Virus record (IMG/VR): IMGVR_UViG_3300036846_001591
Coordinates: 1 to 38,470 of that record
Source: a virus
Direction: 5' to 3' (one strand)
DNA length: 38,470 nt
Position numbers and translations under genes: made by a program. The notes under the pieces are model-generated. The model did not search any database, was not told where the DNA came from, and was given only the letters and a program-made list of their open reading frames with translations. Position 1 is the first letter of the stretch; every line of letters begins with the position of its first letter. Below, in pieces: positions 5,256-31,022 of this stretch.

Positions 5256-7778
5256 ATGGCTAGAAATTCCGGTGGACGTCACGCTCCCACCCCACCGCTG
5301 CCATACCCTGGTAGCGGCGCGCCTGCTTTTGAATGGGCATTCTCATGGAATGCTCCGCTTCCGGTTATCGACTCGTCATTAAATCGACCGCCCGAGCTCG
5401 ATAAACAGACCGAAGAGCAGATCGCCGCCACCCTCAACGCTTATCTCCTGCTTGAACAGCAACCACAGCTGATCCAACGCGATGTGCGCTACCACATCAA
5501 CAAACTGGAAGATTCCCAAGGCATCCGCCGGGCCAATGCGTACTTGACGAAAAACTTTGTTGAGCGCGTATTGCCACGGCTTGATCTCGTCAGTGATAAA
5601 TACCGCGCCTCCGATAACAACAGCGATGCCGCCCTGTGCCACCGCTTTAACCATCTGCCAGACGCCGGGCGAGCTGATATTGAACTGCTGGCGAAAGATA
5701 TCGCCGCTGTCATCAAGCAAGAACTGAGTGTAGTAGATGAAGAGACTGGCCAATCTTCTGAATTATTGAGCGCGATGGTGCTATATAAAGGGGCCGCCGT
5801 ACTTACCCGCCGGTTTAAACAAAAGCCGCCACTGTGGGAAACCTATCAGGTAGCTCCATGGAACATGACTGTTGAAAATACTGCCCCGGAAGTCAAGCGC
5901 ATGATGTCAGAGGATTGGTGGCTGCGACGTTTGCGACGCCATGCTGACCGCTGGAAAGAGCACCTGCATATTGCCATTGGCCACGTCAGCAAAAAAGCCA
6001 CCCCTTACGCCAGCCGGCCAACGGTCAGCGACTGGCGAGAGCAGAAGCGGCGCACTCGTGAATTTCTCAAGTCGATGGAGCTGGAAGATGAAGAAGGCAA
6101 CCGCTTTTCTCTGCTCGACAAGTACGATCACAGCGTCGCTAACCCGGCCATTCGCCGATGCGAACTGATGAACCGCATTCGTGGCTTTGAGGATATCTGC
6201 AATGAAATGGGGTTCGTGGGCGAGTTTTACACCCTCACAGCCCCTTCCCGCTTCCATGCCACCAACAGGCACGGCCACCGCAATCGTAAATGGTGCGGGG
6301 CCAGCCCGGACGAAACTCAACGTTATCTGCGTAATGTATGGGAGCGCGCTCGCGCCAAACTGCATCGTAAAAAAATCCGCATCTTCGGGATCCGCGTAGC
6401 CGAACCTCATGGCGACGGCACACCGCATTGGCACATGCTGTTATTCATGCGCCCGGAGGAAGTTGGCCAGGTGCGCGACATCCTGCGCGCCTATGCCAGT
6501 GCGGAAGACGCCAGCGAACTTTACAGCGAGCGGTCACGAAAAGCCCGTTTTCACGCGGAGGCCATTGATCCGGAAAAAGGCAGCGCGACCGGTTATATCG
6601 CCAAATACATCAGCAAAAACATTGATGGTTATGCGCTGGATGGCGAACTGGACGACGACAGCGGCAAAGAGTTGAAAGAGGTCGCCCCGGCAGTCTCCGC
6701 TTGGGCGGCCCGCTGGCGCATCCGTCAGTTTCAATTTATTGGCGGCGCGCCGGTAACGGTGTTCCGTGAATTGCGCAAGATGTCAGACCATGAAACTGCC
6801 GTTGGCCTAAGTGTCGAGTTTGCTGTGGTGCATGATGCTGCCAACCATGGCCGCTGGGCTGAATACGTCAATGCCCAGGGCGGCCCATTTGTCCGACGTG
6901 ATGAGCTGATTGTTCGCACCTACTACGAGCCAGCGGAAACCACCAACGACTATGGCGAAGATGTGATTCGGATCCGGGGTGTATTTTCGCCGCAGGTCGG
7001 AATAGATACCCCAGTTATCACCCGCACGAAGGAATGGAAGTTTGTTCCGGCCCGTGCCGTTGACCTGGACGTTGACTTTAAGGGCGCGCCTGCGCCCTCT
7101 CGGAGTTCTGTCAATAACTGTACGGTGCAGCCGAAAAGGCTAAAAACCAAACAGGCTAAGGAACCACCTCCACCGCCTGAAAACCTCGATTTTGAGCGAA
7201 TAACCGACAAGGAACGGCGATTGTTGCTCCGGCGGATACGCAACGCACCGCCAGAACCTGTGAAAAATCCATTTATGGCCGTCGCCGAAGGCTTCGCATT
7301 GCCAGACGAGGGGCTAAATCTGCCACCAATAAGGTCGATACTGCTAGATCCGGCCAGCAATAAGCGGTGGCGGGAACAGGTGCGCCACGAACAAGAGCAA
7401 CGCGCCCTGGCTTATTTCAGTTTGGATGATGGGCCGGAAGCTGAACATCACCGACCACCTACGGCCAGCGCTGGCATTAACACAATCAAGCGGCCACTCA
7501 GCAAGCTGGAACGCCAGATCGGCAGCTTCGCCGAGTCCATCGGTTTCAGTCTGGATGCCTCCATTTTGAAATCACTGGCCAGGGGCGCAACGGTCGTGAT
7601 TGACGGTCAGCGCTACCGAGCGCGGACAGATGGTTGTCTGTATCAGCAATCAACGCCAGCAACCACTACCGCGCTGACGCGACTCACTGCGCTATGGCAT
7701 CGACAGATACCAGAGCAAACACGCCTTGTTGGTGACCACCTGAGAAAAGAAGCAATAAAGCACCCATCGGAGGAATAG
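5256..7778 (+). CDS. A: replication endonuclease A (rolling-circle initiator)
   Basis: An 840-residue homologue of P2 gpA, the HUH endonuclease that nicks its own origin inside the A gene and stays linked to DNA through tyrosine to start rolling-circle replication. Visible motifs are the metal-binding HUH block PHGDGTPHWHMLLF (near residues 384-397) and the paired active-site tyrosines in YIAKYISKN (Tyr447 and Tyr451). Other regions matching P2 A are the N-terminal AFSWNAP and the C-terminal GATVVIDGQRY. It is about 80 residues longer than P2 A. A stop codon lies directly before the ATG at 5256, which fixes the earliest start, although the ribosome site is poor. No gene B homologue was found beside it. 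Confidence 0.93.
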   Translation: MARNSGGRHAPTPPLPYPGSGAPAFEWAFSWNAPLPVIDSSLNRPPELDKQTEEQIAATLNAYLLLEQQPQLIQRDVRYHINKLEDSQGIRRANAYLTKNFVERVLPRLDLVSDKYRASDNNSDAALCHRFNHLPDAGRADIELLAKDIAAVIKQELSVVDEETGQSSELLSAMVLYKGAAVLTRRFKQKPPLWETYQVAPWNMTVENTAPEVKRMMSEDWWLRRLRRHADRWKEHLHIAIGHVSKKATPYASRPTVSDWREQKRRTREFLKSMELEDEEGNRFSLLDKYDHSVANPAIRRCELMNRIRGFEDICNEMGFVGEFYTLTAPSRFHATNRHGHRNRKWCGASPDETQRYLRNVWERARAKLHRKKIRIFGIRVAEPHGDGTPHWHMLLFMRPEEVGQVRDILRAYASAEDASELYSERSRKARFHAEAIDPEKGSATGYIAKYISKNIDGYALDGELDDDSGKELKEVAPAVSAWAARWRIRQFQFIGGAPVTVFRELRKMSDHETAVGLSVEFAVVHDAANHGRWAEYVNAQGGPFVRRDELIVRTYYEPAETTNDYGEDVIRIRGVFSPQVGIDTPVITRTKEWKFVPARAVDLDVDFKGAPAPSRSSVNNCTVQPKRLKTKQAKEPPPPPENLDFERITDKERRLLLRRIRNAPPEPVKNPFMAVAEGFALPDEGLNLPPIRSILLDPASNKRWREQVRHEQEQRALAYFSLDDGPEAEHHRPPTASAGINTIKRPLSKLERQIGSFAESIGFSLDASILKSLARGATVVIDGQRYRARTDGCLYQQSTPATTTALTRLTALWHRQIPEQTRLVGDHLRKEAIKHPSEE

Positions 7779-8230: not shown

Positions 8231-10312
8231 TTATTCGGAGAGGTTAATAGCTTCTTTTATATATTGTACAGTATCTACTGAGTAGTTTTTCTTATTCACA
8301 TCCAAAAAAGAGGCTCCAGTAACACTTCCCAGTTTGTTTGGCTCGAGATAATACATATGGCTTTCAGCACTGATGACACCGTCGTCGATAAGTTTGTCTA
8401 AAAGAGCTCGCCCATCTGCATCACGAAGCATACGGGCATGATTAACTTTATCTTGGAGCCTTGCGAGTCTTCCCTTGCTGTGGGAGCGAAATGCCATGAC
8501 TATGCGCCTAAATACTCTTAACGTATCGGCAATACGACCACTTGATTCATCATCAGAAAATTTGCTCGAAAAGGACGACCATGGAAATGTTTCCGAAGAA
8601 GGCCAGCTAACATAAAGCTCAGATCCAGACCTTACGATTGGAACGTTGACAGGTTTGTCACTTTTGAAGTTTTTAGCCTCAAGGATAACACTTGTGTTGG
8701 TGCCATCGCCTTTTAGAGATTTAACGATTATTTTTTCGCTATGTACAATTAAATTATCACAAGAAATACTAACTGGCGAAAATAATTCTAGCTGTTCGCT
8801 TGAAGAAAACTCAACATCTGAGATTTCTGTACTTATAAAAACATTTCCAACCTTGCTTCCTAATAGGAGTACGCCGTATCCTTCTGAAGAGAACTCTATT
8901 TCTTTAAATACACCATTTTCATTAATAATGAACTCTATATTTAGTGAGGAATCATCATTATCATTAATTATCAATGTCGCATTGTCTGAATTTTTAAGCT
9001 TGGATAGAGCAGAGTCAAACAACAAACCAACATATTCACTGCTAATTTTAGGAGAGTTTTCTTTGGGAAATGCTTCTACAAAAAAGTCAAATAGGAACGG
9101 GTTAGGTGTAATTCTTCCAGAAAGGCAGTAATTACGTGCATTTATTGCTATGTTAGATTTATTACTCTGTAAAGCATGAGCCAGCACGCAAGCCTCAAAA
9201 ACAGAACTAGCAAATTTTGTCCCTGCACCGTCTAAGAATGGATGCTGAGGCAGCATACTATTAACAGCATCATCATAGATTGAAACCAAATCATCGGTTA
9301 ATGATGAAGGTGCCGCTATAGGCTCAATATTGAAGATCTGGCAAGCAAGCCTACTCAACTGCTCATCAGCCGTATACAAATTATCCTTTAATAATTCTAA
9401 TCTATCTGTCAATTGAGCCGTTAGTTTTCCTTGCTCACGATTCAAAATAGCTTTACATATATTGAGAAGCAGCTCACCACTGAGGATGCTAGTCATTTCT
9501 TCAGAAATTTTAGAAGGGTTAGATATGGTTCCTATAACCTTAGACACTGCATCTAATACAGGTGCATACCCAAAGAATCTAGTCGACTCATTGCCGGAAA
9601 CTTGTTTTAACGATTGAACAATTTCATAAACAGATCGTTCATAAACAGGATAATGATCACGCAATGTGACAGGAAGATGCTTGTAGTCAACATTTGAACA
9701 GTCGTGTTCAGACAATCCATTTAGCGATTCTAATATAAATGATTTCGCTTCATCTTCATTGAAAAATTCAATATCAAAAACAGGGCAATGGACCCCATGA
9801 AACTCGCTGAGAATCAACCAAGTCTCTTCTATTATACCAACCCTTCCAAATATTACTATGGGGTTATTATTCCTCTTGGATACTTTATTTACATCCTCCA
9901 GAAAGTCCTCAAATGAGTTTTGAGTTACTCTTAGCCTAGCTTCATCTAAAGAATCGATAACAAGTCCAGCAGTCCCTTTATTCCAATCATCAAGTATATC
10001 CTTATCAGCAAGGCCACCGATAAGATAGTTCCCAGCTATTGTAGAAGCCTGTGATAGATCTAAATATATAGCACCTGTTTCATTGCTTAATTCCCTTGCC
10101 ATCACTGACTTCCCTACAGCACCAGGCGCACTTATCAAAATTATCCTGGCATCATCTACAGCACCAACTAACGACTCATTAAGAGTTAGTCTCGCAGGGC
10201 TATATTTTTTACTCTCATCTTTGGTAAAAAACCAACCATTAGAGTCGCTGTGATTAACTATACGTTTAACGTTACTAAATTTAGTAGTAATATCATATAA
10301 TGTATGAGTCAT
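8231..10312 (-). CDS. P-loop NTPase of STAND-like build, cargo gene at old/tin locus
   Basis: A 693-residue protein I cannot assign to a named family. The N-terminal NTPase has a Walker A, SAPGAVGKS (residues 61-69), a Walker B with adjacent acidic residues, GLVIDSLDEA (116-125), and a sensor-like strand PIVIFGR (151-157). This resembles NACHT/STAND or AAA signalling ATPases. A helical middle part follows. From about 440 to 560 comes a strand-rich stretch of repeated short beta segments (TLIIN, LNIEFII, VLLLGS, VFISTE, DNLIVHS) that looks like a beta-solenoid sensor. The C-terminus is helical and charged. AAAGGAAAAGG precedes the ATG. The gene is AT-rich, stands alone, and sits after A where P2 carries tin and old, so an antiphage role is a reasonable inference. 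No separate effector domain is recognisable. Confidence 0.8.
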   Translation of the reverse strand: MTHTLYDITTKFSNVKRIVNHSDSNGWFFTKDESKKYSPARLTLNESLVGAVDDARIILISAPGAVGKSVMARELSNETGAIYLDLSQASTIAGNYLIGGLADKDILDDWNKGTAGLVIDSLDEARLRVTQNSFEDFLEDVNKVSKRNNNPIVIFGRVGIIEETWLILSEFHGVHCPVFDIEFFNEDEAKSFILESLNGLSEHDCSNVDYKHLPVTLRDHYPVYERSVYEIVQSLKQVSGNESTRFFGYAPVLDAVSKVIGTISNPSKISEEMTSILSGELLLNICKAILNREQGKLTAQLTDRLELLKDNLYTADEQLSRLACQIFNIEPIAAPSSLTDDLVSIYDDAVNSMLPQHPFLDGAGTKFASSVFEACVLAHALQSNKSNIAINARNYCLSGRITPNPFLFDFFVEAFPKENSPKISSEYVGLLFDSALSKLKNSDNATLIINDNDDSSLNIEFIINENGVFKEIEFSSEGYGVLLLGSKVGNVFISTEISDVEFSSSEQLELFSPVSISCDNLIVHSEKIIVKSLKGDGTNTSVILEAKNFKSDKPVNVPIVRSGSELYVSWPSSETFPWSSFSSKFSDDESSGRIADTLRVFRRIVMAFRSHSKGRLARLQDKVNHARMLRDADGRALLDKLIDDGVISAESHMYYLEPNKLGSVTGASFLDVNKKNYSVDTVQYIKEAINLSE

Positions 10313-10542
10313 TTTACCTTTTCCTTTGGTATCAGTTTGTACTAGATGTTCCCATCACAATCCATGGTTTTGTCTCCTCCTAGGTATACTACCTAGAGGC
10401 CTTTCGCCACGGGCTTGGTATATTGAATCTCTCCCAACCCCGTAGATAAGTCTACCCTATATCTGGCTAACATTCATGAGCGTTAAGCACCAAAGTCAAC
10501 TCGTTGCTTACTGGTTTTCATCGTGTTTAACACAGAACACAG

Positions 10543-10731
10543 CTAGGTCAAGTCTGAGCAAACACAGATGACGCAATCAAAATGAATCAATTTTCGCAAA
10601 AATGAATACCCGCAGCGAATCAACATTAAAGTCCGTACATTACCACCCATATCAAAGCGCCCATACGCCACACAGCGAGGTGCTTTTTTTGCACTAAAGA
10701 TCGTGCATCGAATCTGATCGCCTCGCAGCAA
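10543..10731 (-). CDS. doubtful small reading frame over the cos region
   Basis: An open frame of 62 codons from a TTG, which stays open upstream to about 10786, past the hairpin. It has no good start codon or ribosome site. The composition (Cys- and Arg-rich, SAKKAPRCVAYGRFDMGGN) is protein-like and resembles short hypothetical proteins often annotated in enterobacterial prophages. Its last codons (SDLT-stop) are matched by a second copy at 29655-29669. It may be a real conserved peptide or conserved DNA with another role, such as packaging. Confidence 0.25.
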   Translation of the reverse strand: MLRGDQIRCTIFSAKKAPRCVAYGRFDMGGNVRTLMLIRCGYSFLRKLIHFDCVICVCSDLT

Positions 10732-10741
10732 TGCGCAGGTG

Positions 10742-10802
10742 AATGCGGTGCGGGGTTTACGGAGGATAGGCAGAAAACGATCCCCATCGTTCTCCTAATC
10801 CG
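10742..10802 (+). other. candidate cos site with adjacent hairpin
   Basis: TGCGGTGCGGGG (10744-10755) resembles the start of the P2/186 cohesive end (GGCG-GGCGGGG) in position, orientation and G-rich core. It is followed by an imperfect stem-loop (10760-10802) centred on AACGAT-CCCC-ATCGTT. The site lies between the old/tin-position cargo and Q, as cos does in P2. The sequence is not identical to P2 cos, and cleavage cannot be shown from the sequence alone. Confidence 0.4.
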
Positions 10803-11106
10803 TGCCGTCCCCCCCGCCCCCGCGCTGCATACTTAAGAATTCACTTTTTATGCAGTAGGAAAAACGAGTCAAACCTTGATGGCTGTAGCTTGAAAGGATG
10901 AATAGGCATGCAAGAAAGTATGCGGATTGTTGCACTTAGGATATGCAGTGTTTTTTTATTTGAAATCCGGGTCTATCCCGATAATAAACACGCTTTATAG
11001 AAGAGTGACAGCGTAAAGCATCCCGGAAAACGTTAAACAATCCTGCCACGTCACATTTTTATTTTCAACAGGCATGTGACTATGGCATTGTCATGAAAAA
11101 ATCGTC

Positions 11107-11120
11107 TGTGACATGTCACA
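11107..11120. promoter_or_regulatory. 14-bp perfect palindrome TGTGACATGTCACA
   Basis: A perfect palindrome, followed two bases later by another ATGTCAC. Related half-sites (CGTCAC, ATGTGAC, TTGTCAT) lie within the preceding 70 bases. The arrangement looks like an array of operator half-sites. It resembles a CRP site, but the spacer is four bases instead of six. Confidence 0.45.
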
Positions 11121-11162
11121 ATGTCACTCGGTGATGCAACTGCATATAAATAATCGCGCTAA

Positions 11163-11187
11163 AAAATAAAAACCGCCTTTCGGCGGC
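11163..11187 (-). terminator. terminator of the two-gene cargo operon
   Basis: CCGCC-TTTC-GGCGG (11173-11186). Read on the minus strand, the hairpin is followed by TTTTTATTTTTT, a classical rho-independent terminator. It lies 38 bases after the stop of the gene at 11225. Confidence 0.75.
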
Positions 11188-11224
11188 TATTATGACGCTT
11201 GTAATACCAATGAACGCTTCAATT

Positions 11225-12244
11225 TCAAAACTCTTTGAAGTCGACAATTTCGTTATTTAACACTGCTGACTCTGATGAGTCTAAAGGATCTAACAAGCTG
11301 AGTTCAGGAAACAATTTTCTTTTCGTACTAGGTTTGATATACACCTGAGAGATCATCGCCAGAAAATTTTCGGTACTGTAAATAGTCTCATAATGAGCAG
11401 AACCTTCACCATCGTCATACCAGGAACCTGTATCAACTACGGGAGTGTTAAGTAATGGTAATATTGTGCTGAAATCGTCAGTGCGAATTGAAACAGCAAA
11501 CTTGAATGGATATGAGTCTCCCTGCGAAAAATAATCTTCTCCACGGCCATATTGCCTCGTAATTTCGACCGTGCCCCGAACCAGAAGATAAATATAGGTT
11601 TCATCGAGGCTAAGTAATTCCGTTTCGTCTACATTACACCAATCAACAATCGTCTGTGCTGATAAAATATCCAGTTCGTCTGGTATGTTGTTCCTTGTAA
11701 CTTCATTAACTTCATCCTGTACTTTTTCGATTATTGATTCAGTAATTAGGTGCTCAAGATCATCGAAATCATCGAATATTGTATTACACAATTGAAATAG
11801 TAATTTCGCACGTTCAAAAAACTCTTTAGGGTTACTATCGAACGAACTTTCACTAATGTGTGTGTAATCATTTAACGATGCATAGTTTTTATTAAACCAT
11901 CCTATAGCAGAATCTAGACTTTCGAGGACACCCTCATCCAGAAGATCATCGGATATATGTTTCTGGGCAATATATTTAGCCTGTTGCTTCCGAGTGATCG
12001 TGGCATTATTTTTATTTTTTGTGAACCATGGTGACGCCTTAACTCTATCATCAGGTGCCAGTCGTTTCAGTACATGGTTTATCAGTTCACGTATTGCATA
12101 AGCAAAATTGTTGAAGCGTAGAGGGTTTCCGTGGGAGCAGTAATTACGAAGGCTTGCATACAAAAGCGCATGTTCAAAATCTGTTTCTAGGTGCTCCTGA
12201 AACTCTAGAATAAAATCCATTTTAAGCATTCTCTTTAGTTTCAT
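11225..12244 (-). CDS. putative HEPN / pPIWI-associated nuclease-like protein
   Basis: A 339-residue acidic protein and second gene of a leftward cargo operon. The N-terminal helical part contains RNYCSH (residues 33-38), which fits the R-x4-6-H signature of HEPN ribonucleases. It is followed by GNPLRFNNFAYAIRELINHV and, near residue 146, the segment NDYTHI. The C-terminal part is beta-rich (LVRGTVEITRQYG...SYPFKFAVSI). The whole layout recalls proteins annotated as predicted pPIWI-associating nucleases, known from bacterial conflict islands, but this is recognition from memory. AAGG precedes the ATG. It is AT-rich. A toxic RNase or nuclease effector paired with the DUF559 protein upstream is the leading idea; catalysis is unproven. 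Confidence 0.7.
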   Translation of the reverse strand: MKLKRMLKMDFILEFQEHLETDFEHALLYASLRNYCSHGNPLRFNNFAYAIRELINHVLKRLAPDDRVKASPWFTKNKNNATITRKQQAKYIAQKHISDDLLDEGVLESLDSAIGWFNKNYASLNDYTHISESSFDSNPKEFFERAKLLFQLCNTIFDDFDDLEHLITESIIEKVQDEVNEVTRNNIPDELDILSAQTIVDWCNVDETELLSLDETYIYLLVRGTVEITRQYGRGEDYFSQGDSYPFKFAVSIRTDDFSTILPLLNTPVVDTGSWYDDGEGSAHYETIYSTENFLAMISQVYIKPSTKRKLFPELSLLDPLDSSESAVLNNEIVDFKEF

Positions 12245-12339
12245 ATAAGTACCTTAGCAATAATTATTATAAGTTGTTAGCCAACCATTCCAGCGAAAGT
12301 TTTTCTAGTTTTAATTCATTTCATTGATCTGCTATAAAA

Positions 12340-13293
12340 TCACATCTCATACAAAGTTAAGCCCACAGAAGCTCCAATAATGTACCAAATTCGTTGCCAT
12401 AGAACATACACAAGCTCGCTACCGATATAGGAAGTGTTTTCATTACCATGACGTAACAGCTTAGCATTCGCTAAATAGCTAGAATTATATCCTCCAAAAT
12501 TTCTTTCACTCAGAGTGGCAGGAAGAACCGACCTCAGCGGTTCAATATAAACAGGATCATCTGCGACCAAGATAAAATCATCAAACAAATGAGAAAAGCT
12601 TTTCATATGCGTACCTAATTCAAGTGAATACCACTCATCTGAGAACAGATTGATCCTAACCTCACCTTTTTCATATTCCTTGATTAAACCATCCAGATGT
12701 TTTACTTCTTTCTCATCTTCTGGTGGATGAAAAACAAATGCAGTAATAAATGATTTTTCATGAAGCCATGAAATAGCGTGAGGGATAAGTTCATCAAGAC
12801 TTACAGGTTTTAACTCTCTACCGGGATGTAATTCTCGAAAGAAACGTAATGCCTTAGCTGTTTCTCTATAAACAAATGGATAATCTATATACATAACACG
12901 ATATTTTGCAGGTGTTCTTTGCAACCTTTCTTTATATATCCCCCTCACTTCTGAAACACATTCACGAGGATTCCTATTTATTTCCTTCCCGGTAAATATA
13001 ATTACAGAGTATCCAGCCCTAGTAAGATACCGTTGCCTTATCGCATCTTTTTCTAGCTGTTCCTTTGTAGAGTGAAATTCATGTCCATCTAATTCAATAA
13101 TTAATCGAGCATCTTTTAAAATGAAGTCAACACGGTATCGAGAGTGTTTTTCTCGGTCACCAAACCAATGTTCACTTTCAATAGCGTCGGCTAAGTCACC
13201 CAACTCTTTACTAAATGCTTCCTCAATATAAGATTGTTCTCTATCTCGGTACCAACTTGGAGGTGATTTTGGTTGTCCTGGATACTTCAACAT
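12340..13293 (-). CDS. DUF559-type PD-(D/E)XK endonuclease-like protein
   Basis: A 317-residue protein whose N-terminal third is a Vsr/DUF559-type nuclease fold: YRVDFIL (Asp56), IIELDGHEFH (Glu67 and Asp69), then the helix with KDAIRQRYLTRAGY and the strand SVIIFTGKEI. The rest (residues 140-317) is unassigned, with a hydrophobic segment near the C-terminus (YVLWQRIWYIIGASVGL). I chose the ATG at 13293 because GAGTGGG precedes it and a candidate promoter would begin transcription after the alternative ATG at 13350. It lies 95 bases upstream of the gene at 11225, same strand, with a shared terminator, so the two probably form one operon. The strong A+T content and place beside Q suggest acquired cargo. 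Confidence 0.78.
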   Translation of the reverse strand: MLKYPGQPKSPPSWYRDREQSYIEEAFSKELGDLADAIESEHWFGDREKHSRYRVDFILKDARLIIELDGHEFHSTKEQLEKDAIRQRYLTRAGYSVIIFTGKEINRNPRECVSEVRGIYKERLQRTPAKYRVMYIDYPFVYRETAKALRFFRELHPGRELKPVSLDELIPHAISWLHEKSFITAFVFHPPEDEKEVKHLDGLIKEYEKGEVRINLFSDEWYSLELGTHMKSFSHLFDDFILVADDPVYIEPLRSVLPATLSERNFGGYNSSYLANAKLLRHGNENTSYIGSELVYVLWQRIWYIIGASVGLTLYEM

Positions 13294-13351
13294 TTTCCCA
13301 CTCACTTGTATCAAAATGTGTCTATAACAATAATCCTGATACACTGCCATT

Positions 13352-13529: not shown

Positions 13530-14567
13530 TTATAAGTCCTGCTTCAGCAATTCATAAGGCTTGAAGCTGATCACCTCTTCCCCTGCCCACTCGTTTAGCT
13601 CACACAGCCGCTCTTGCAGCGGAGCCAGCTCGTTAATCGCGAAAACCCGAGCCGCCTTCTCAACATCCCCAAAACCACCGGTGTTATTCGGCAAAATACC
13701 CATCAGTTGCGGCGGTGTGCGCTGGGCGGCAAGCTGATCATCGCGGGTCACGTTCTTGATGTTCAAAAATTCGTCCTTTGCCGCGACTTCGGCCAGCGGG
13801 ATCAGTTGTAACCCATCCGGCTTACCGCCAGGCGCATACATAAACAGGTTTCGGAAGTTACCCGGCCCTTTAGACTCTTTCAGCGCTTTACGCAGGTTGT
13901 CGATATCCTCCTGCTTGTGCGCCGCATCGTTCATGTACAGGATAAACCCGGCATGACTGCCGTTAAGGTAGTATTTCCGGCGGAACAGCGTCGCTGCCTC
14001 GTTAAGCCAGATGGAATTAAGTGAGGAGAGGTATTCGGGAACGCCGTAAATCTCCTGGTTAATGTCAGGATCCATCAGGTGAAAAATAGAACCCTTCGCA
14101 AACTGATGCGGTTCCATCCACGATTGTACGAACCAATAAGAATCAGTTTCTACGCCACAGCGGGTGTATTTCGCCAGGCTGGGGGCCAGTTTCATCAGAC
14201 CGCCCAACCGGTTATAGCGCCCCTCAATAAAACTGTTGCCGAACACCATAAAATCCTGCGCATAACGGCTAAAATCCTGCTTTGACAGCAACCGGTGTGG
14301 TTTGAACATGCTCACTAAAATATTGCGCTTCATGGTGATCGGTGAACTGTGATGCACCGCCGCGCGGAACGTTTTCGCCAGGCCACTGAATGAGATCGGC
14401 GGCTCATACCAACGGTCAACAATGCTGCATTCCAGATAGTCCAGGATTTCACGCCGATCCAGCATCGGGATAGGGTCGCCGAAGGTAAACGCCTCAACAT
14501 GCTGCGCGCCGCTTTGTTTCTGCGTGATAGGCTGGGTATTTTTGTGGCCCCGGTTGCGTTTGCTCAT
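13530..14567 (-). CDS. Q: capsid portal protein Q
   Basis: A 345-residue portal vertex protein, the same length as P2 Q. It forms the dodecameric ring through which DNA enters and to which the tail joins. Family features include the N-terminal EAFTFGDPIPMLDRREILDY, the block PPISFSGLAKTFRA, and AAQRTPPQLMGILPNNTGGF near the C-terminus. Its ATG directly follows the TAA of P, so the two are coupled in the leftward PQ operon. Confidence 0.95.
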   Translation of the reverse strand: MSKRNRGHKNTQPITQKQSGAQHVEAFTFGDPIPMLDRREILDYLECSIVDRWYEPPISFSGLAKTFRAAVHHSSPITMKRNILVSMFKPHRLLSKQDFSRYAQDFMVFGNSFIEGRYNRLGGLMKLAPSLAKYTRCGVETDSYWFVQSWMEPHQFAKGSIFHLMDPDINQEIYGVPEYLSSLNSIWLNEAATLFRRKYYLNGSHAGFILYMNDAAHKQEDIDNLRKALKESKGPGNFRNLFMYAPGGKPDGLQLIPLAEVAAKDEFLNIKNVTRDDQLAAQRTPPQLMGILPNNTGGFGDVEKAARVFAINELAPLQERLCELNEWAGEEVISFKPYELLKQDL

Positions 14568-23124: not shown

Positions 23125-24032
23125 TGGCCACCATTGATCTGAGCCAACTCCCCCGCCCCAATGTCATTGAGGCATTGGATTTTGAGACGCTATTTTCCGA
23201 ACGAAAAGAGCGGTTAATCAGCCTGTATCCCGAAGAAGAGCGGGAGGCGGTACGCCGCACCCTGGCTTTTGAATCCGAGCCGATCGTCAAAATCCTGCAA
23301 GAGTCAGCTTATCGGGAGATGTTATTGCGGCAGCGCGTCAACGAAGCGGCGCAGGCGGTCATGGTGGCCTACGCCATCGGTAATGACCTTGAACAGCTTG
23401 GTGCAAATAACAACACACCACGATTAACGATCGTCCCGGCAGATGACGAAGCTATCCCGCCAGTTGAGGAAGTGAAGGAGTCGGACGCCGATTACCGCCA
23501 GCGCATCCCGGCGGCCTTTGAAGGGATGAGCGTCGCCGGCCCGACCGGGGCGTATGAATTCCATGCACAAAGTGCGGACGGAAAGGTCGCGGATGCCTCG
23601 GCAATCAGTCCCGCCCCGGCAGAAGTCACGATCAGCGTATTGTCTCGCGATGGTGATGGCACCGCATCCCCCGAACTGTTGGCCACCGTCAGCGCCGCAT
23701 TGAATGACGAGGCAGTCCGCCCGGTGGCTGATCGGCTGACCGTGCAATCTGCCCAAATCGTCAATTATCAGATCGACGCCATGCTGTTCGTTTACCCTGG
23801 CCCGGCCATCGAACCGATTATGGCCGATGCTGAACTGCGCCTTAAAAGCTACATCAACGAGCAGCGCCGGTTAGGTCGCGATATTCGACTATCGGCCATC
23901 TATGCGGCACTGCATACCCAGGGCGTGCAACGCGTTGAACTGGCGGCCCCCCAGGCTGACGTGGTGTTAGACCGCACCCAGGCGGCCAACTGTACCGATT
24001 ATCGCATCCGGATCGGCGGTTCGGATGAATAG
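23124..24032 (+). CDS. J: baseplate protein J
   Basis: A 302-residue P2 gpJ homologue, a baseplate wedge protein related to T4 gp6. Conserved parts include LYPEEEREAVRRTLAFESEP, the ESAYREMLLRQRVNEAAQAV helix and the GDGTASPELLATVSAALNDE segment. It overlaps W by one base and I by eight bases. Confidence 0.94.
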   Translation: MATIDLSQLPRPNVIEALDFETLFSERKERLISLYPEEEREAVRRTLAFESEPIVKILQESAYREMLLRQRVNEAAQAVMVAYAIGNDLEQLGANNNTPRLTIVPADDEAIPPVEEVKESDADYRQRIPAAFEGMSVAGPTGAYEFHAQSADGKVADASAISPAPAEVTISVLSRDGDGTASPELLATVSAALNDEAVRPVADRLTVQSAQIVNYQIDAMLFVYPGPAIEPIMADAELRLKSYINEQRRLGRDIRLSAIYAALHTQGVQRVELAAPQADVVLDRTQAANCTDYRIRIGGSDE

Positions 24033-24633
24033 CCTGTTGCCATCTGGCTCATCCCCGCTTGAACGACGCGCGGCAGAAGCCTGCGCCGGCATCAGCGATC
24101 TGAATACTCCACTGCGTGACCTGTGGAACCCTGACCGCTGTCCGGTCAAGTTTCTGCCCTATTTGGCCTGGGCGTTTTCAGTCGATCGCTGGGATGAGCA
24201 ATGGACGCCGGCGGAAAAGCGCAAGGCGGTCAAAGACGCCTTTTATATCCATCGCCGCAAGGGAACGATAGCCGCCATCCGGCGCGTGATTGAGGTGATG
24301 GGCTACTCAATGTCAATCGCGGAATGGTGGCAGGTCGCAGACCCGCGCGGCACGTTCCGCCTCACTATCGACGTGAACGACGTCGGGATCACAGAGGAAA
24401 TTGTCCGTGAGCTTGAACGGCTTATCGGTGATGCCAGACCCGTCAGCCGACACATTGCACAATTAAGTATCACGACGAAGGTCAGCGGCTTTATCTATTC
24501 CGCCGTCTCAGTTCATGACGGCGATATCGTCACTGTCTACCCTGCCGATTACGAGCCGGACGACAGCGTTAAATACAACGGTATTCCGCGCTTTGGTCGC
24601 GGCTATCACTATTCCGGGGGAAAAAATGTCTGA
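24025..24633 (+). CDS. I: baseplate protein I
   Basis: A 202-residue P2 gpI homologue, which links baseplate and fibres. LPSGSSPLERRAAEACAGI, LAWAFSVDRWDEQW and HRRKGTIAAIRRVIEVMGY are family hallmarks. The C-terminus extends about 25 residues beyond P2 I (VTVYPADYEPDDSVKYNGIP). The next gene starts inside its last codons. Confidence 0.92.
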   Translation: MNSLLPSGSSPLERRAAEACAGISDLNTPLRDLWNPDRCPVKFLPYLAWAFSVDRWDEQWTPAEKRKAVKDAFYIHRRKGTIAAIRRVIEVMGYSMSIAEWWQVADPRGTFRLTIDVNDVGITEEIVRELERLIGDARPVSRHIAQLSITTKVSGFIYSAVSVHDGDIVTVYPADYEPDDSVKYNGIPRFGRGYHYSGGKNV

Positions 24634-26443
24634 GCTGAGCGAAGAAGCAAAATGGGAAGATTCGATATATCAAATACAGCGCGGAGATGAAGTGTCGGGC
24701 GGCCGTGATGGCGTGGCAAATAAGCCCACCCGGCAATTGGCAAACCGCACCCGGGCATTAAAAAATGACGTGGACAAACTCAACACGTCAGTGATGAGTG
24801 ATGCCAAAATTTATGACAGTGTCGAAGAGGCGCAAGCAGCGATCACTGCCGGTACCGAAACCCGCCGGCTGTTTACCGTTAATTCCCCCATCACTAATTA
24901 TTGGGTGGAGCAATACGAAAATGTTAACGGTATCGCGACACCGACCGGTAAGAACATTGTCACGGCAGCATTCGTTGAAGCGGTAGAACTGCTGGCCTCG
25001 GCGACCGACAAGCGCACGCGTGGCTTGCTGACAATGCCCCGCTCAAAAAAACCGGTCGATTTTGTCAGCCGACAGGGTAAGAGCATGTTCTCAATCAATG
25101 AGAACAGTGAAAAAGAGATGCCTGGAAAAACCTTCTCCGATTACATGAATATTTTCCGAGAACTGATTATCGGCCCGTCGTCATTACGCCGCGCCCGTCC
25201 AGGGTATCTTTTTAATCTCGTGACGGGGGGTTTTCGGCTTCTGGCTGTTCGTGATGATGGAACCAGCACCCTTGAATATCGGGGCATACCGGTAGAAACC
25301 CATCTTGGGCTGTTGCAAAACACCCTGGGAGGCTTCGGGGATTCGATATCAGACAATGGCCGCAACCCGGCGAATACAGGTAAACCGCGCGGCTGGACGT
25401 ATAACGCGCGCTCATGGCAGGTGTGGTCATCGCTATTTAGCAATGGTCGGATTAAATACGTCGGCCAATGGGCTACGGGCGGCCATACAACGGCGGACAT
25501 GATCCGAGATCACTTAAAACCTGCTATCGCTGCGAAACCGCGTTTTATGACGTTTCTCGGCGGGCGAAATGATGTTATTCAGAAAAACACTAACGGGAGT
25601 TTTAAATTCTCAATCGCAGCAATAAAAGACAACGTCAAATACATTCTGACCGAATTCAGAAAGAACGGGATTATTCCCGTTGTCTGCTCAATGGCGGCAC
25701 AGAATAACGCAGACCCGGCGTTAAAGGGGCGAGAAAATGAAGTTAATGCGTTTTTGCGAGCATATGCAAGGGAGCAGGGTTTCCCGTTTGTTGATATGCG
25801 CACGGTAACCGTTGATCCGATGACTGATGGCTGGAAAGACGGCTATAACGGCGTGCTGTCGAACGGGCAACCCGACCCCTCACACCCTGTTGCGCTAGGG
25901 GCCTTTCACATGGGTAAAGCGCTGGCGGAAGCGCTCGAGCCTTACACCATGCCCGTGTATCCGCAACTTGCAATCGCAAACCCAGCGACGCAGGACGGGC
26001 CAAACGCCATTGTTAATCCATTGTTTATGGACGTCGTCGCGGGCGTGCCCACAGGCTGGACAGTAGGAGCAGGCAGTGCAGTCATTACGACAGGCCCCGC
26101 AGTCATCGGTAACGTTCTTACCGTAACCGGCTCAGGTAGTACGATTGCGCGCGTATCGCAAGTGGTAATCGTCTCTCCCGGCGAGGTGCGCACGTTTAGT
26201 TTCAGGGTGAAAACGGACGTTACGGATAAAAACTCAACCGCCTGTTATCTCGAAGCAAACGACGAATTTAAAACGAATCTCGCCGGGATCAGGACGTGGA
26301 ATCATTCTACGGACGGCTTTATGACATTCAGCTATGACGTCCTTATCCCCGCTGAGGTCACGGAAATTAACGTCATTATCGCGGCTAATGCGGCAACAAT
26401 CAGCGTCGGCCAGATGGGTTTATTAAAACAGGAGGCAGTATGA
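24626..26443 (+). CDS. tailspike/fibre with SGNH (GDSL) hydrolase domain
   Basis: A 605-residue receptor-binding protein. Residues 1-60 (SELSEEAKWEDSIYQIQRGD and following) look like a particle-binding head used by several phage spikes. The middle is an SGNH/GDSL hydrolase: block I FGDSIS with Ser240, block III GGRND with Asn315, and block V DPSHP with Asp417 and His420. The last 150 residues form a beta-sandwich that resembles a carbohydrate-binding module. Such domains deacetylate surface polysaccharides (capsule or O-antigen), so the phage may modify its receptor during adsorption. GGGGG precedes the ATG at 24626; the frame is open upstream but inside gene I. This gene has no counterpart in P2, where the plain fibre H follows I. 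Confidence 0.85.
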   Translation: MSELSEEAKWEDSIYQIQRGDEVSGGRDGVANKPTRQLANRTRALKNDVDKLNTSVMSDAKIYDSVEEAQAAITAGTETRRLFTVNSPITNYWVEQYENVNGIATPTGKNIVTAAFVEAVELLASATDKRTRGLLTMPRSKKPVDFVSRQGKSMFSINENSEKEMPGKTFSDYMNIFRELIIGPSSLRRARPGYLFNLVTGGFRLLAVRDDGTSTLEYRGIPVETHLGLLQNTLGGFGDSISDNGRNPANTGKPRGWTYNARSWQVWSSLFSNGRIKYVGQWATGGHTTADMIRDHLKPAIAAKPRFMTFLGGRNDVIQKNTNGSFKFSIAAIKDNVKYILTEFRKNGIIPVVCSMAAQNNADPALKGRENEVNAFLRAYAREQGFPFVDMRTVTVDPMTDGWKDGYNGVLSNGQPDPSHPVALGAFHMGKALAEALEPYTMPVYPQLAIANPATQDGPNAIVNPLFMDVVAGVPTGWTVGAGSAVITTGPAVIGNVLTVTGSGSTIARVSQVVIVSPGEVRTFSFRVKTDVTDKNSTACYLEANDEFKTNLAGIRTWNHSTDGFMTFSYDVLIPAEVTEINVIIAANAATISVGQMGLLKQEAV

Positions 26444-27156
26444 TTATCATTTGTGATGGCGTCGTGAATGCCAGTGATTTGGAACTGGCCGAGCCTGAAA
26501 TGCTGCTGAATGACGACGCCAGCGTCGCCACCTACGGGATGCAGGACAAGTACGATTCCAGCGGAAACGCGCGCGACTTGGTGACAGAAAACGAATTCAC
26601 CCAGCGCGGTATGAACACCCTTGCTGACTCAGTGCACGGTGCTGACACAGGCATTATTGAAACAGACGAAATGACGTTTGCGCTCTGCATCAATATGAAT
26701 AAACCCGCCGTTAGCGGTCGTCTCTTTTCCAATTTCTATCCCGGTGTAGCACCATTCTCGGGCATTCAGTTGCGTATCGAAGCCAATGGCGTGCTGATTT
26801 TGCAAGTTGCCACTGGTGATGTGAACAACGGCCCGGCGGGAACCATTTCCGTGACCTCGGTCGAGAACGGCGGAGCTGTCGGGGGATGGACGCGCTTCAC
26901 AGTAACAATTTCGAATACCGAAGCATCGATCACTCGCGCTGCGGGTAATCGGGTGGTAACGCCAATCACGAAGCGAAACAAATCGACCCGACCGTTGATG
27001 TTGAATGGTTCGCCCAGCCCGGAGCAAAACATGGGCCTGCCGGGGATCATGGGCGCATTCGCTGTTTATGACAGAGTATTGACCGCCGAAGAGCAGACAG
27101 ATAAGCGTGACAAACTTAAGACGGTCATGAGCCTGCGTGGCGAATTCGTTAATTAA
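26440..27156 (+). CDS. LamG/concanavalin-like lectin-domain protein
   Basis: A 238-residue protein of the concanavalin A-like fold. The central strands (MTFALCINMNKP...GRLFSNFYPG...GIQLRIEANGVLILQVA) and the C-terminal GIMGAFAVYDRVLTAEEQ are the usual LamG end pattern. It overlaps the spike gene by four bases with AGGAGG upstream, so the two are made together. It probably binds a glycan, either as part of the spike complex or as a second adhesin. No signal peptide is seen. Confidence 0.78.
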   Translation: MIIICDGVVNASDLELAEPEMLLNDDASVATYGMQDKYDSSGNARDLVTENEFTQRGMNTLADSVHGADTGIIETDEMTFALCINMNKPAVSGRLFSNFYPGVAPFSGIQLRIEANGVLILQVATGDVNNGPAGTISVTSVENGGAVGGWTRFTVTISNTEASITRAAGNRVVTPITKRNKSTRPLMLNGSPSPEQNMGLPGIMGAFAVYDRVLTAEEQTDKRDKLKTVMSLRGEFVN

Positions 27157-27167
27157 CAGGTGGGGAT

Positions 27168-28343
27168 ATGGCCGATAAAAAGTTTCTCACGCTGATCACT
27201 GCCACGGGTGCCGAACGTCTGGCAAATGCAGCGGTAACAGGCACGCCGGTAGCCATCGCAGAAATGGCCGTCGGTGATGGCGGTGGCCTTTTGTCGATGC
27301 CAGGTAGCGCCAGTGTCGGTCTGATCAGTGAACAGTACCGGGGCATACTGAATAAGCTGGTGATCGCCGACAGTGATGCCAGCGTGATCGAGGCTGAAAT
27401 GATCATGCCGCCACAAATTGGCGGCTTTTGGCTACGTGAGCTGGCGCTCTATGCCGAGGACGGTGAATGCATCGCCGTTGGCAACATGCCGGAAACCTAT
27501 AAGCCATTACTGGCCGAAGGCTCTGGCCGTTTCCAAATCATCAGGATGCAGTTGAAAATCAGTAGCACAGCGGCGGTGGAACTGATAGCTGATCCGTCTG
27601 TCATTCTGGCAACGGTCGAAGACGTCAATACCCTGGAAGAAAAGGTCAAAGACTATACCGATGACCAACTGTCAGACCATGAACAATCGCGCAATCACCC
27701 GGACGCAACGCTGAAAGCCCGAGGCTTTACCCAGTTGAGCAATGCCACGGACAGTGATAGTGAAGACTTAGCCGCAACGCCGGCAGCAATCAAAGCTGCA
27801 ATCAAAGAAGCAGTCAAAGAAGCTGTGAGCCAGGCATGGGAGCTGGATAACCCTATTGGAACTTCTCGTCTGTTCAATCAGAACGTAAATCCCAATGAAC
27901 GTTGGCCGTGGTCAACGTGGGAATATGCCGGCGAACACCTGACGATCAGAACGGCTAAAGCAGACGGCTCCGATGTTGGCACCCTGGGTGGCAGCGACAC
28001 AGTGACAATTGCGCGTGCAAATCTGCCGGCGGAAAAAATCAGCGTATCAGGGACAGCACAAGATACCGACCTTGGGACGAAGCGCACCAAGCCTAGTGGT
28101 AAACACGTTCATCATGGCGTACCTAAACGCAACAGTGATTATGAGCTGGGCGGTAACAATCGGGTATTCTTCGACCCTTATCAGGAAGGCGACACAGACG
28201 AAGCCGGCGAACACGATCACGAATTGGAGTTAGGCCCACACGGCCACCCCGTTGCGGGGAAAACTGACGCGCTGGGCCAAGGGCAGGCGATCAGCATCGT
28301 TGAGCGGCACAAGCTGCAAATGCTGTGGCACCGTGTAGCATAA
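27168..28343 (+). CDS. H: tail fibre H, P2-type head with short collar-like tip
   Basis: A 391-residue fibre. Residues 1-190 match the P2 gpH N-terminus (DUF3751), including MAVGDGGG, PPQIGGFWLRELALY, MPETYKPLLAEGSGR and HPDATLKARGFTQLSNATDS. The remaining part is short and different, with His-rich loops (KHVHHGVP, EHDHELELGPHGHP) like metal-binding collar or short-tail-fibre tips. P2 H is about 670 residues, so most of the P2 shaft is missing. No G chaperone gene follows, which fits a fibre tip that folds without one. Confidence 0.88.
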   Translation: MADKKFLTLITATGAERLANAAVTGTPVAIAEMAVGDGGGLLSMPGSASVGLISEQYRGILNKLVIADSDASVIEAEMIMPPQIGGFWLRELALYAEDGECIAVGNMPETYKPLLAEGSGRFQIIRMQLKISSTAAVELIADPSVILATVEDVNTLEEKVKDYTDDQLSDHEQSRNHPDATLKARGFTQLSNATDSDSEDLAATPAAIKAAIKEAVKEAVSQAWELDNPIGTSRLFNQNVNPNERWPWSTWEYAGEHLTIRTAKADGSDVGTLGGSDTVTIARANLPAEKISVSGTAQDTDLGTKRTKPSGKHVHHGVPKRNSDYELGGNNRVFFDPYQEGDTDEAGEHDHELELGPHGHPVAGKTDALGQGQAISIVERHKLQMLWHRVA

Positions 28344-28750: not shown

Positions 28751-29539
28751 GTGAAAATGAACGCAGGGACTCTCCTCGATTATCTAAATGCAACACTTGA
28801 AAATTCTAACGATCACGCACAGGAACATCCTCAGCTAATGCATATGGTTCTTCAGATGGATCAGATATTTCAAGAAGAAATTTTTGATCATGAATTTGAT
28901 GTGAACCCTATTGCCGGTTTTCTGGCAATGAATTCCTATACACTACTGTTAAGCGCAGTACGGCAGGCGCTATCTGGACACCTAGTGGCAGTTTTTCCGA
29001 TCGTTCGTACCGCGCTTGAATCCGCCTGTTATGCCTACCTGATAGCCCATAACGAAGCGATGGGAGATATATGGTTAAATAGGCACACAACTGAGAACGC
29101 ACTTCAGAAATGCCGAAAAATGTTCTCCGTGAAAAAGGCTTCAAATGAATTAAAATCCATTTCCCCTGAAATGGCTGAATTTGTGATGGCTAACTATGAA
29201 GCTGCTATCGATTTTGGAGCACATCCAAATAAAAAATCTGTATTTAACCACTTGACGGACATGGGTGAGGTAAATGATAGATTTCATGGCTTCGAGCTTA
29301 CCGGTGTTTACGGACGAAATAGCTGGCATGTGAACTATGCACTACTTGTTAGCACTGAGGTGGGCCAGGCAATTGCATTCCTGCTTGCTGCTTGTGCCGA
29401 TAAACATCCTCTAATTCATGAGCGCTTAGAAGTGTTCACTAACTGGGTCAATGAAAAGAATGAGATGGCCGACGAAATCAATGGTGAACCAATAGACTAT
29501 TCTGGGCCGATGTATTGTTCAGTTAAATCGCCAGAGTAA
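28751..29539 (+). CDS. unknown cargo protein at Z/fun locus, possibly DUF5677/HEPN-like
   Basis: A 262-residue helical protein I cannot firmly name. The segment VAVFPIVRTALESACYAYLI (about residues 76-95) resembles the R-x3-E helix of DUF5677-like, HEPN-related proteins. Elsewhere there are helices with KCRKMF, a GRNSWHVNY stretch, and a hydrophobic helix (QAIAFLLAACA). Translation probably starts at GTG 28751, nine bases after TTGGAG; ATG 28757 is the alternative. It lies between the fibre genes and FI, exactly where P2 carries Z/fun, the gene that excludes T5. A+T richness and location suggest an exclusion or defence function. Confidence 0.7.
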   Translation: MKMNAGTLLDYLNATLENSNDHAQEHPQLMHMVLQMDQIFQEEIFDHEFDVNPIAGFLAMNSYTLLLSAVRQALSGHLVAVFPIVRTALESACYAYLIAHNEAMGDIWLNRHTTENALQKCRKMFSVKKASNELKSISPEMAEFVMANYEAAIDFGAHPNKKSVFNHLTDMGEVNDRFHGFELTGVYGRNSWHVNYALLVSTEVGQAIAFLLAACADKHPLIHERLEVFTNWVNEKNEMADEINGEPIDYSGPMYCSVKSPE

Positions 29540-29849: not shown

Positions 29850-31022
29850 ATGGCTCAAGACTACCACCACGGCGTGCGCGTGCAGGAAATCAACGAAGGC
29901 ACCCGCACCATCACCACCGTCAGCACGGCTATTGTTGGGCTGGTCTGTACCGGTGATGACGCCGATGCGAAAACCTTCCCGTTAAACACACCCGTATTGC
30001 TAACCGACGTATTGACCGCCAGTGGCAAAGCCGGCGATTCTGGCACCCTGGCCCGTTCCCTGGACGCCATCGGCGACCAGACAAAACCTGTCACTATTGT
30101 GGTGCGTGTCGCCCAGGGCGACACCGAAGCGGAAACCACCACCAACATCATCGGCGGCGTGACCACCGAAGGCAAAAAAACCGGCATGAAAGCCCTGTTG
30201 GCCGCGCAAAGCCAGCTTGGTGTAAAACCCCGCATTCTGGGTGTGCCTGGTCATGATAATGAGGCTGTAGCCTCTGAATTGTTAGCTATCGCACAAAGCC
30301 TGCGCGGCTTCGCGTACCTAAGCGCCTATGGCTGTAGAACCGTGGCCGAAGCCATCGATTACCGTAAAAACTTCAGTCAGCGTGAAGCCATGCTGATTTG
30401 GCCAGACTTCCTGAGCTGGGATAGTGTGACCAACGCATCGGCAACCGCCTACGCGACGGCCCGCGCGTTGGGGCTGCGCGCCAAGATTGATGAGCAAACC
30501 GGCTGGCACAAAACCCTGTCAAACGTCGGCGTCAATGGCGTGACCGGCATCAGCGCCGATGTGTATTGGGATTTGCAGGATACGGCCACCGATGCCAATC
30601 TGCTGAACCAAAACGATGTCACCACATTGATCCGCAAAGATGGATTCCGTTTCTGGGGTTCCCGCACCTGCTCAGATGATCCGCTATTCCAGTTTGAAAA
30701 TTACACCCGCACCGCGCAGGTGTTGGCGGACACCATGGCCGAAGCACAAATGTGGGCCGTTGATCAGCCTATGCACCCTTCCCTTGCCAAAGACATTATC
30801 GAAGGCATCAAGGCCAAATTCCGTGAGCTGAAATCCGGCGGCTACATTATCGACGGTGATTGCTGGATGGATGATGCGGCCAACGATAAGGACACGCTTA
30901 AGGCGGGCAAGTTGGTGCTGGACTACAACTACACGCCCGTGCCGCCGCTTGAAAATCTGCTGCTGCGCCAGCGCATCACCGACCAATATCTGATGAATTT
31001 TACTCAGAACGTGAACAGCTAA
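29850..31022 (+). CDS. FI: contractile tail sheath protein FI
   Basis: A 390-residue tail sheath protein of P2 type (P2 FI has 396). The N-terminus [20 protein letters not shown], the segment [20 protein letters not shown] and the C-terminal [20 protein letters not shown] are typical. AGGAG precedes the ATG; an open frame continues 29 codons upstream but overlaps the promoter. First gene of the FI-FII-E-T-U-D operon. Confidence 0.96.

Follow-up and report, generated by a model that had tools for sequence, protein, structure and literature searches.

The window, that is the whole stretch of 38,470 bases analysed here, is a P2-like (Peduoviridae) phage record. Among named phages it is closest to Klebsiella and Yersinia Peduoviridae, with which parts of its capsid, terminase and tail genes share 72–77% DNA identity. 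Downstream of the baseplate gene gpI lie a tail spike of the SGNH (GDSL-type) esterase class, a small gene for a protein of lectin fold (LamG) and a short H, followed by a cargo gene and the sheath gene FI (Table 1). The spike start was placed at 24626, where homologues and the PHROG anchor begin, the mechanical ORF start being 24515, and the LamG start overlaps the spike stop through the sequence ATGA. A receptor-recognition cassette is proposed to occupy the P2-like spike locus, between gpI and the sheath gene. Searches of NCBIfam and PADLOC with the spike, LamG and H genes were unproductive.

Table 1. Genes, domains and catalytic codons at the spike locus (positions in the window)
Feature	Position	Strand	Basis
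gpI baseplate/tail protein, upstream neighbour	24025-24633	+	Pfam Tail_P2_I 5e-49
SGNH (GDSL-type) esterase tail spike, 605 aa	24626-26443	+	Pfam Lipase_GDSL_2 6.7e-15; AF2 and Foldseek match to GDSL esterases
Spike: swappable N-terminal virion anchor, res 1-52	24626-24781	+	phrog_10372/3100 match
Spike: small domain and shaft, res 53-232	24782-25321	+	AF2 low confidence as monomer
Spike: SGNH catalytic domain, res 233-450	25322-25975	+	Motifs, alignment, AF2, Foldseek
Catalytic codon S240	25343-25345	+	
Catalytic codon N315	25568-25570	+	
Catalytic codon D417	25874-25876	+	
Catalytic codon H420	25883-25885	+	
Spike: C-terminal jelly roll, carbohydrate-binding-module-like, res 455-605	25988-26440	+	AF2 pLDDT about 90
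LamG/ConA-like lectin-fold partner gene, 238 aa, phrog_4390 relative	26440-27156	+	Laminin_G_3 3.5e-6; AF2 pLDDT 89.6
Short H / tail-collar fibre, 391 aa	27168-28343	+	PF12571 1.2e-44; PF03406 2e-14
Cargo gene in the H-FI interval, where P2 has fun(Z)	28751-29539	+	phrog_36906 3e-85; DUF5677 weak; P2 map
Sheath gene FI	29850-31022		

The cargo gene is outside the adsorption module and has no relative within the phage collection. The distance between H and FI varies among relatives, with extremes of 70 bases in L004 and about 2.9 kb in L002, and because of this variation the interval looks like a second cargo site. A defence hotspot is known in P2 (PMC9122126), and the minus-strand region 8231-13350, between gpA (5256-7778) and the portal gene Q (13530-14567), lies at this hotspot. 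It encodes a pPIWI-associating nuclease (11228-12244; pP_pnuc_1 1.9e-35, PADLOC Aga_Nuclease 4e-57), a DUF559/MTES_1575-type nuclease (12343-13350) and an orphan protein of 693 aa with no clear family (8234-10312), making the region a candidate for a new pAgo-like defence locus. At positions 1-1299, also on the minus strand, an OLD-like/AAA_15 ATPase gene is cut by the left end of the window and adjoins the integrase (1633-2511).

The spike and its SGNH domain

The spike is a modular SGNH esterase, composed of a swappable N-terminal anchor, a shaft, the SGNH domain and a C-terminal jelly roll of sugar-binding type. The anchor is of a type common to many P2-like spikes, and a tail location follows from the tail-fibre PHROG matches covering residues 1-112 together with the position of the gene between gpI and H; the first ~50 residues would hold the spike in the baseplate. 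Relatives carry other anchors on the same spike body (L013, L014 and L030), that of L013 being a lambda-type phage_tail_N, while L014 and phage KLB5 begin differently again. Structure prediction, which the first-pass annotation had put forward as one means of checking its reading, returned an SGNH domain and a jelly roll for the spike, both modelled with high confidence. The full-length AF2 model is of moderate confidence (pLDDT 73.9), the shaft being poorly modelled, as is to be expected when a trimeric region is folded as a monomer. Foldseek comparisons show similarity of the jelly roll to parts of CBA120 TSP4 and to a hyaluronan-binding module, its counterpart in the homologue L013 matches CBM_4_9 (1.6e-4), and the domain may serve to hold the polymer.

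The four catalytic residues previously assigned to the spike, Ser240 (in GDSIS), Asn315 (GGRND) and Asp417 and His420 (both in DPSHP), are exactly numbered in the translation. Together with G286 they are identical in 29/29 aligned spike relatives, down to 28% identity, so that all of the SGNH/GDSL blocks are present: block I with the GDS serine, block II with glycine, block III with the GxND asparagine and block V with the aspartate and histidine of DxxH. The AF2 model of residues 233-450 adopts the flavodoxin-like SGNH fold, matching GDSL esterases in Foldseek at E 4e-10 and TMt 0.71-0.86, and the proximity of the catalytic atoms was judged via this fold match. Acetylxylan esterase Axe2, including its catalytic mutants S15, D191 and H194, and a sialic acid (sialate) esterase are among the matches.

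The function of SGNH fibres as capsule or O-antigen deacetylases is established (PMC13123978, PMC9569702), the tail fibres of Klebsiella prophages, G7C gp63.1 and Possum gp66 being demonstrated esterases or deacetylases. Because these fibres are proven enzymes, trimming of an acetylated polysaccharide is the best-supported role for the spike, which by analogy very probably removes acetyl groups from a host surface sugar; esterase activity on an O-acetylated glycan would be its chemical basis. The first-pass annotation had proposed such a deacetylase acting on capsule or O-antigen, and in this respect it is supported. The presence of such an enzyme on a P2-type phage is not in itself surprising; temperate phages with SGNH esterase spikes have been reported before (PLoS Biol 2026).

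It is improbable that the spike enzyme acts on some other ester, such as a lipid or a non-acetyl substituent, or only binds, and is no polysaccharide deacetylase. Enzymes of the SGNH/GDSL superfamily catalyse a wide range of reactions, the fold matches of the domain include TesA thioesterases and one spike homologue is annotated as thioesterase-like, all of which leave some room for this alternative. Against it, the catalytic set is intact in all relatives, acetylxylan and sialic acid esterases are close fold matches, the LamG partner is shared with SASA acetylesterase spikes (see below) and those SGNH phage fibres that have been assayed are acetyl esterases (PMC13123978). As a deacetylase, the spike enzyme is one more case of an established SGNH fibre type, and what is worth following up is its dedicated lectin partner.

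Pairing of the spike with a lectin-fold gene

A LamG lectin ahead of H had been recognised previously, and the gene is found there with a predicted ConA-like jelly roll matching ConA-like lectin domains in Foldseek, only the first 11 residues being disordered. The Laminin_G_3 match only just clears the Pfam cut-off, while the match to the phrog_4390 profile is significant (E 6.9e-11, residues 63-234). The top PDB matches of the model are the lectin-like receptor-binding domains of clostridial neurotoxins, at 10-16% identity, a resemblance at the level of the ConA-like fold only, and a function drawn from them was rejected; a PDB sequence search with LamG was unproductive. The protein may bind sugar, although a LamG fold by itself is no proof of this, and it would sit in the virion, on the spike. 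The homologue in phage AAM37 carries the record label "structural protein".

In 44/44 intact loci of the spike subfamily of the window, LamG directly follows the spike gene and is always a gene of its own, with a gap of -4 to about +12 bp between the two. These loci are distinct contigs drawn from IMG/VR, named phages and bacterial genomes, leaving out those cut by contig ends (L027/L050, L066) and one with a frameshifted LamG (L017). The pair is carried by P2-like, lambda-like, Chaseviridae and Dibbivirus backbones. Such obligate adjacency rejects the notion that LamG is a single gene caught by chance, and the earlier view of it as an independent insertion is not borne out.

For the reverse comparison, 392 genomes were searched with phrog_4390; 12 of them yielded a total of 15 matches, and every match follows an esterase-type spike (GDSL or SASA). 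The spikes belong to four unrelated families, namely the SGNH subfamily of the window, two other GDSL spikes and a large SASA cluster; the latter is tied together by BLAST, with members lacking a Pfam match scoring 4e-25 or better against the SASA-spike profile. Fourteen of the lectin genes lie within 12 bases of the spike, the exception (L129) being a shortened gene at 137 bases. The count leaves out a pair of degraded LamG fragments from a single genome (L075/L077) as well as L071, where a large protein contains a weak match. The combination of a SASA spike with LamG behind it is also present in named phages of Serratia (Opt-155 and ChuuTotoro), Pseudomonas (UF_RH7) and Acinetobacter (fLi-Aba02) and in three genera of Klebsiella Peduoviridae, and 7/7 further IMG/VR contigs have it. 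The non-esterase spikes that Gegevirus (CotH) and Gegavirus (TSP4-like) carry at the same P2 locus are accompanied by other accessory genes. Some SGNH spikes (G7C gp63.1, Jojan60 and Footloose) have no LamG after them, so that LamG is not a general requirement of esterase spikes.

A search of E. coli genomes and plasmids was unproductive, as was a viral scan using an alignment of Opt-155-type LamG, and a scan of genome contigs returned Serratia proteamaculans only. One bacterial genome (G627) holds three LamG loci (C1:1.91 Mb, 2.01 Mb and 3.49 Mb), two behind a GDSL spike and one behind a SASA spike.

Among 26 non-redundant pairs, LamG distances track spike residues 131-232 best (r = 0.92), followed by the CBM-like domain (0.83-0.86), the SGNH domain (0.78-0.84) and, lowest, the anchor (0.46-0.57). 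All of these correlations exceed permutations, yet relatedness alone yields as much, so that only their ranking is informative, and this ranking is itself sensitive to segment length and saturation. The spike-LamG cassette has been exchanged between phage backbones. In L003 the whole cassette, at 80-92% DNA identity, sits on a diverged backbone (50-64% just upstream), and in L002 the spike and the first ~60 LamG codons have been swapped inside a backbone that is roughly 90-96% identical. The L002 breakpoint, near LamG residue 60, fits contact between the LamG N-terminus and the spike, although a single breakpoint is no proof.

Block exchange of phage tail genes would also allow LamG to be an independent fibre, hitch-hiking beside the spike since the cassette moves as a block, and a published description gives fLi-Aba02 two separate fibres (PMC11058221). 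This is very doubtful, given that the adjacency holds over unrelated backbones and four families of esterase spike while non-esterase spikes at the same locus go without LamG. It is the same distribution that argues for LamG as a dedicated partner of esterase spikes.

The short H and the proposed mechanism

H consists of a P2 H-type N-terminus, the collar domain matched by PF12571 (1.2e-44), one fibre repeat and a Gp10_C-like tip. The histidine-rich tip noted previously takes the form of three HxH motifs, largely kept in sister phages. The HxH tips of T4 fibres bind metal, and the tip of H probably does likewise. When the tip of the window (27843-28340) is compared with those of L004/L007/L010/L012, two clearly different variants are seen with one and the same spike family, so that tip and spike specificity are exchanged independently.

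On the P2 map gene G is present at the corresponding place, whereas a search of all 38,470 bases for PF02413, the family of the gpG/Tfa chaperones, gave no match even at E ≤ 10; a G hidden elsewhere in the record was accordingly rejected. Of 34 IMG/VR records that carry the SGNH-LamG pair, 32 likewise lack the family; in the other two (L060 and L068) the match lies upstream of the spike gene. At least 80% of the length of the short H is matched in 36 named phage records, an H of 357-391 aa with no annotated G is normal in sister genera and the order I, spike, accessory gene, short H is the layout of five Klebsiella Peduoviridae genera examined. Truncation of H by damage was rejected, the same length and tip being found in relatives from five named genera. 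A short H without a chaperone is therefore ordinary for a branch of Peduoviridae, and the terms shortened and missing, as used in the first-pass annotation, are apt relative to P2 only.

Absence of the Tfa family from most records with the pair speaks for the main rival to a virion lectin, in which LamG is a maturation factor (a chaperone or trimerisation helper) for esterase spikes that replaces Tfa/gpG and is absent from the finished virion or left as a cap. LamG occupies the Tfa/G position directly after the spike, is never fused to it and co-varies with its shaft, as such a helper might. It has a lectin fold, however, and not a Tfa fold, some SGNH spikes do without it and the AAM37 homologue carries its structural label, which together make a maturation factor an unlikely, if serious, contender.

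The reading of the locus that is preferred, and held to be probable by a modest degree, is that of a receptor-recognition cassette made up of an O-acetylesterase spike, a dedicated LamG lectin partner and a chaperone-free short H. The SGNH domain would most likely take O-acetyl groups off the host surface polysaccharide, leaving the chain uncut, and LamG would most likely be a lectin subunit in its own right, attached to the shaft of the spike and gripping the polysaccharide that the enzyme trims. The short H with its HxH tip would act as a second fibre, a short one able to do without a Tfa-type chaperone. For the wider proposal, that stand-alone LamG proteins of the phrog_4390 group are the obligate second subunit of sugar-O-acetylesterase spikes of several unrelated families, a widespread and overlooked "trim and grip" device, the chances are judged to be about even. 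If it is true, esterase spikes tested alone may be incomplete.

SGNH esterases are reported among the commonest enzymes of prophage receptor-binding proteins (PMC13123978), yet the specificity and host-entry mode of these esterases are poorly understood. Should SGNH spikes often pair with a dedicated lectin encoded by the next gene, spike-only assays could overlook binding or specificity, predictions of host range based on the spike by itself would fall short and phrog_4390, of unknown function so far, would gain a testable role.

Comparison with known systems

No paper in the open-licence full-text literature was found to describe a lectin as a general partner of esterase spikes; the closest mention is a remark that, of the fibre proteins of fLi-Aba02/03, one is SGNH and one ConA-like (PMC11058221). 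The SGNH tail fibres of Klebsiella prophages (PMC13123978) resemble the window in coming from temperate phages with SGNH in a receptor-binding protein, and there esterase activity and capsule specificity were shown. In those fibres SGNH is situated at a brush-like C-terminus, whereas in the spike of the window a CBM-like domain follows SGNH and a separate, obligate LamG gene is present; the main text of that study does not mention a lectin or concanavalin-like partner.

The fibres G7C gp63.1 (Escherichia) and Possum gp66 (Pectobacterium) deacetylate O-polysaccharide by an SGNH enzyme while the backbone is kept, as proposed for the window. These fibres belong to another phage type and, as noted, the gene for gp63.1 is not followed by LamG. 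Close kinship of the spike to gp63.1 was rejected, similarity beyond the motifs not being significant: the only match is local and spans 27 residues (E 0.029), the A3 profile search gave no hit and homology over the enzyme domain was not found.

The same gene pair in the same order is seen in AAM37 (gp29-gp30, Pantoea), Faunus (GDSL and hypothetical, Erwinia) and KLB5 (MVRE034-035, Klebsiella), with about 30% identity to the window for the spike and 22-31% for the lectin. These pairs differ in having other backbones and anchors and no P2-type H behind, and their records do not call the pair a unit. Acinetobacter fLi-Aba02 (gp21-gp22) also has an esterase fibre followed by a ConA-like lectin gene, a co-occurrence that has been noted (PMC11058221); its enzyme, however, is of the SASA rather than the GDSL class, and its lectin is a core member of phrog_4390.

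In the CotH spike of Klebsiella phage ST437-OXA245phi4.1 (L031 10558-12507), at the same locus, the CotH-kinase domain (1.9e-19) represents a kinase-like fold in a tail spike and is accompanied by a phrog_2889 accessory gene. Gegevirus, Gegavirus, Reginaelenavirus, Dagavirus and Vimunumvirus are the five Klebsiella genera that share the layout of the window, with no annotated G, while differing from it in a spike that is CotH, TSP4-like or SASA, not GDSL, and, for Gegevirus and Gegavirus, in having an accessory gene other than LamG.
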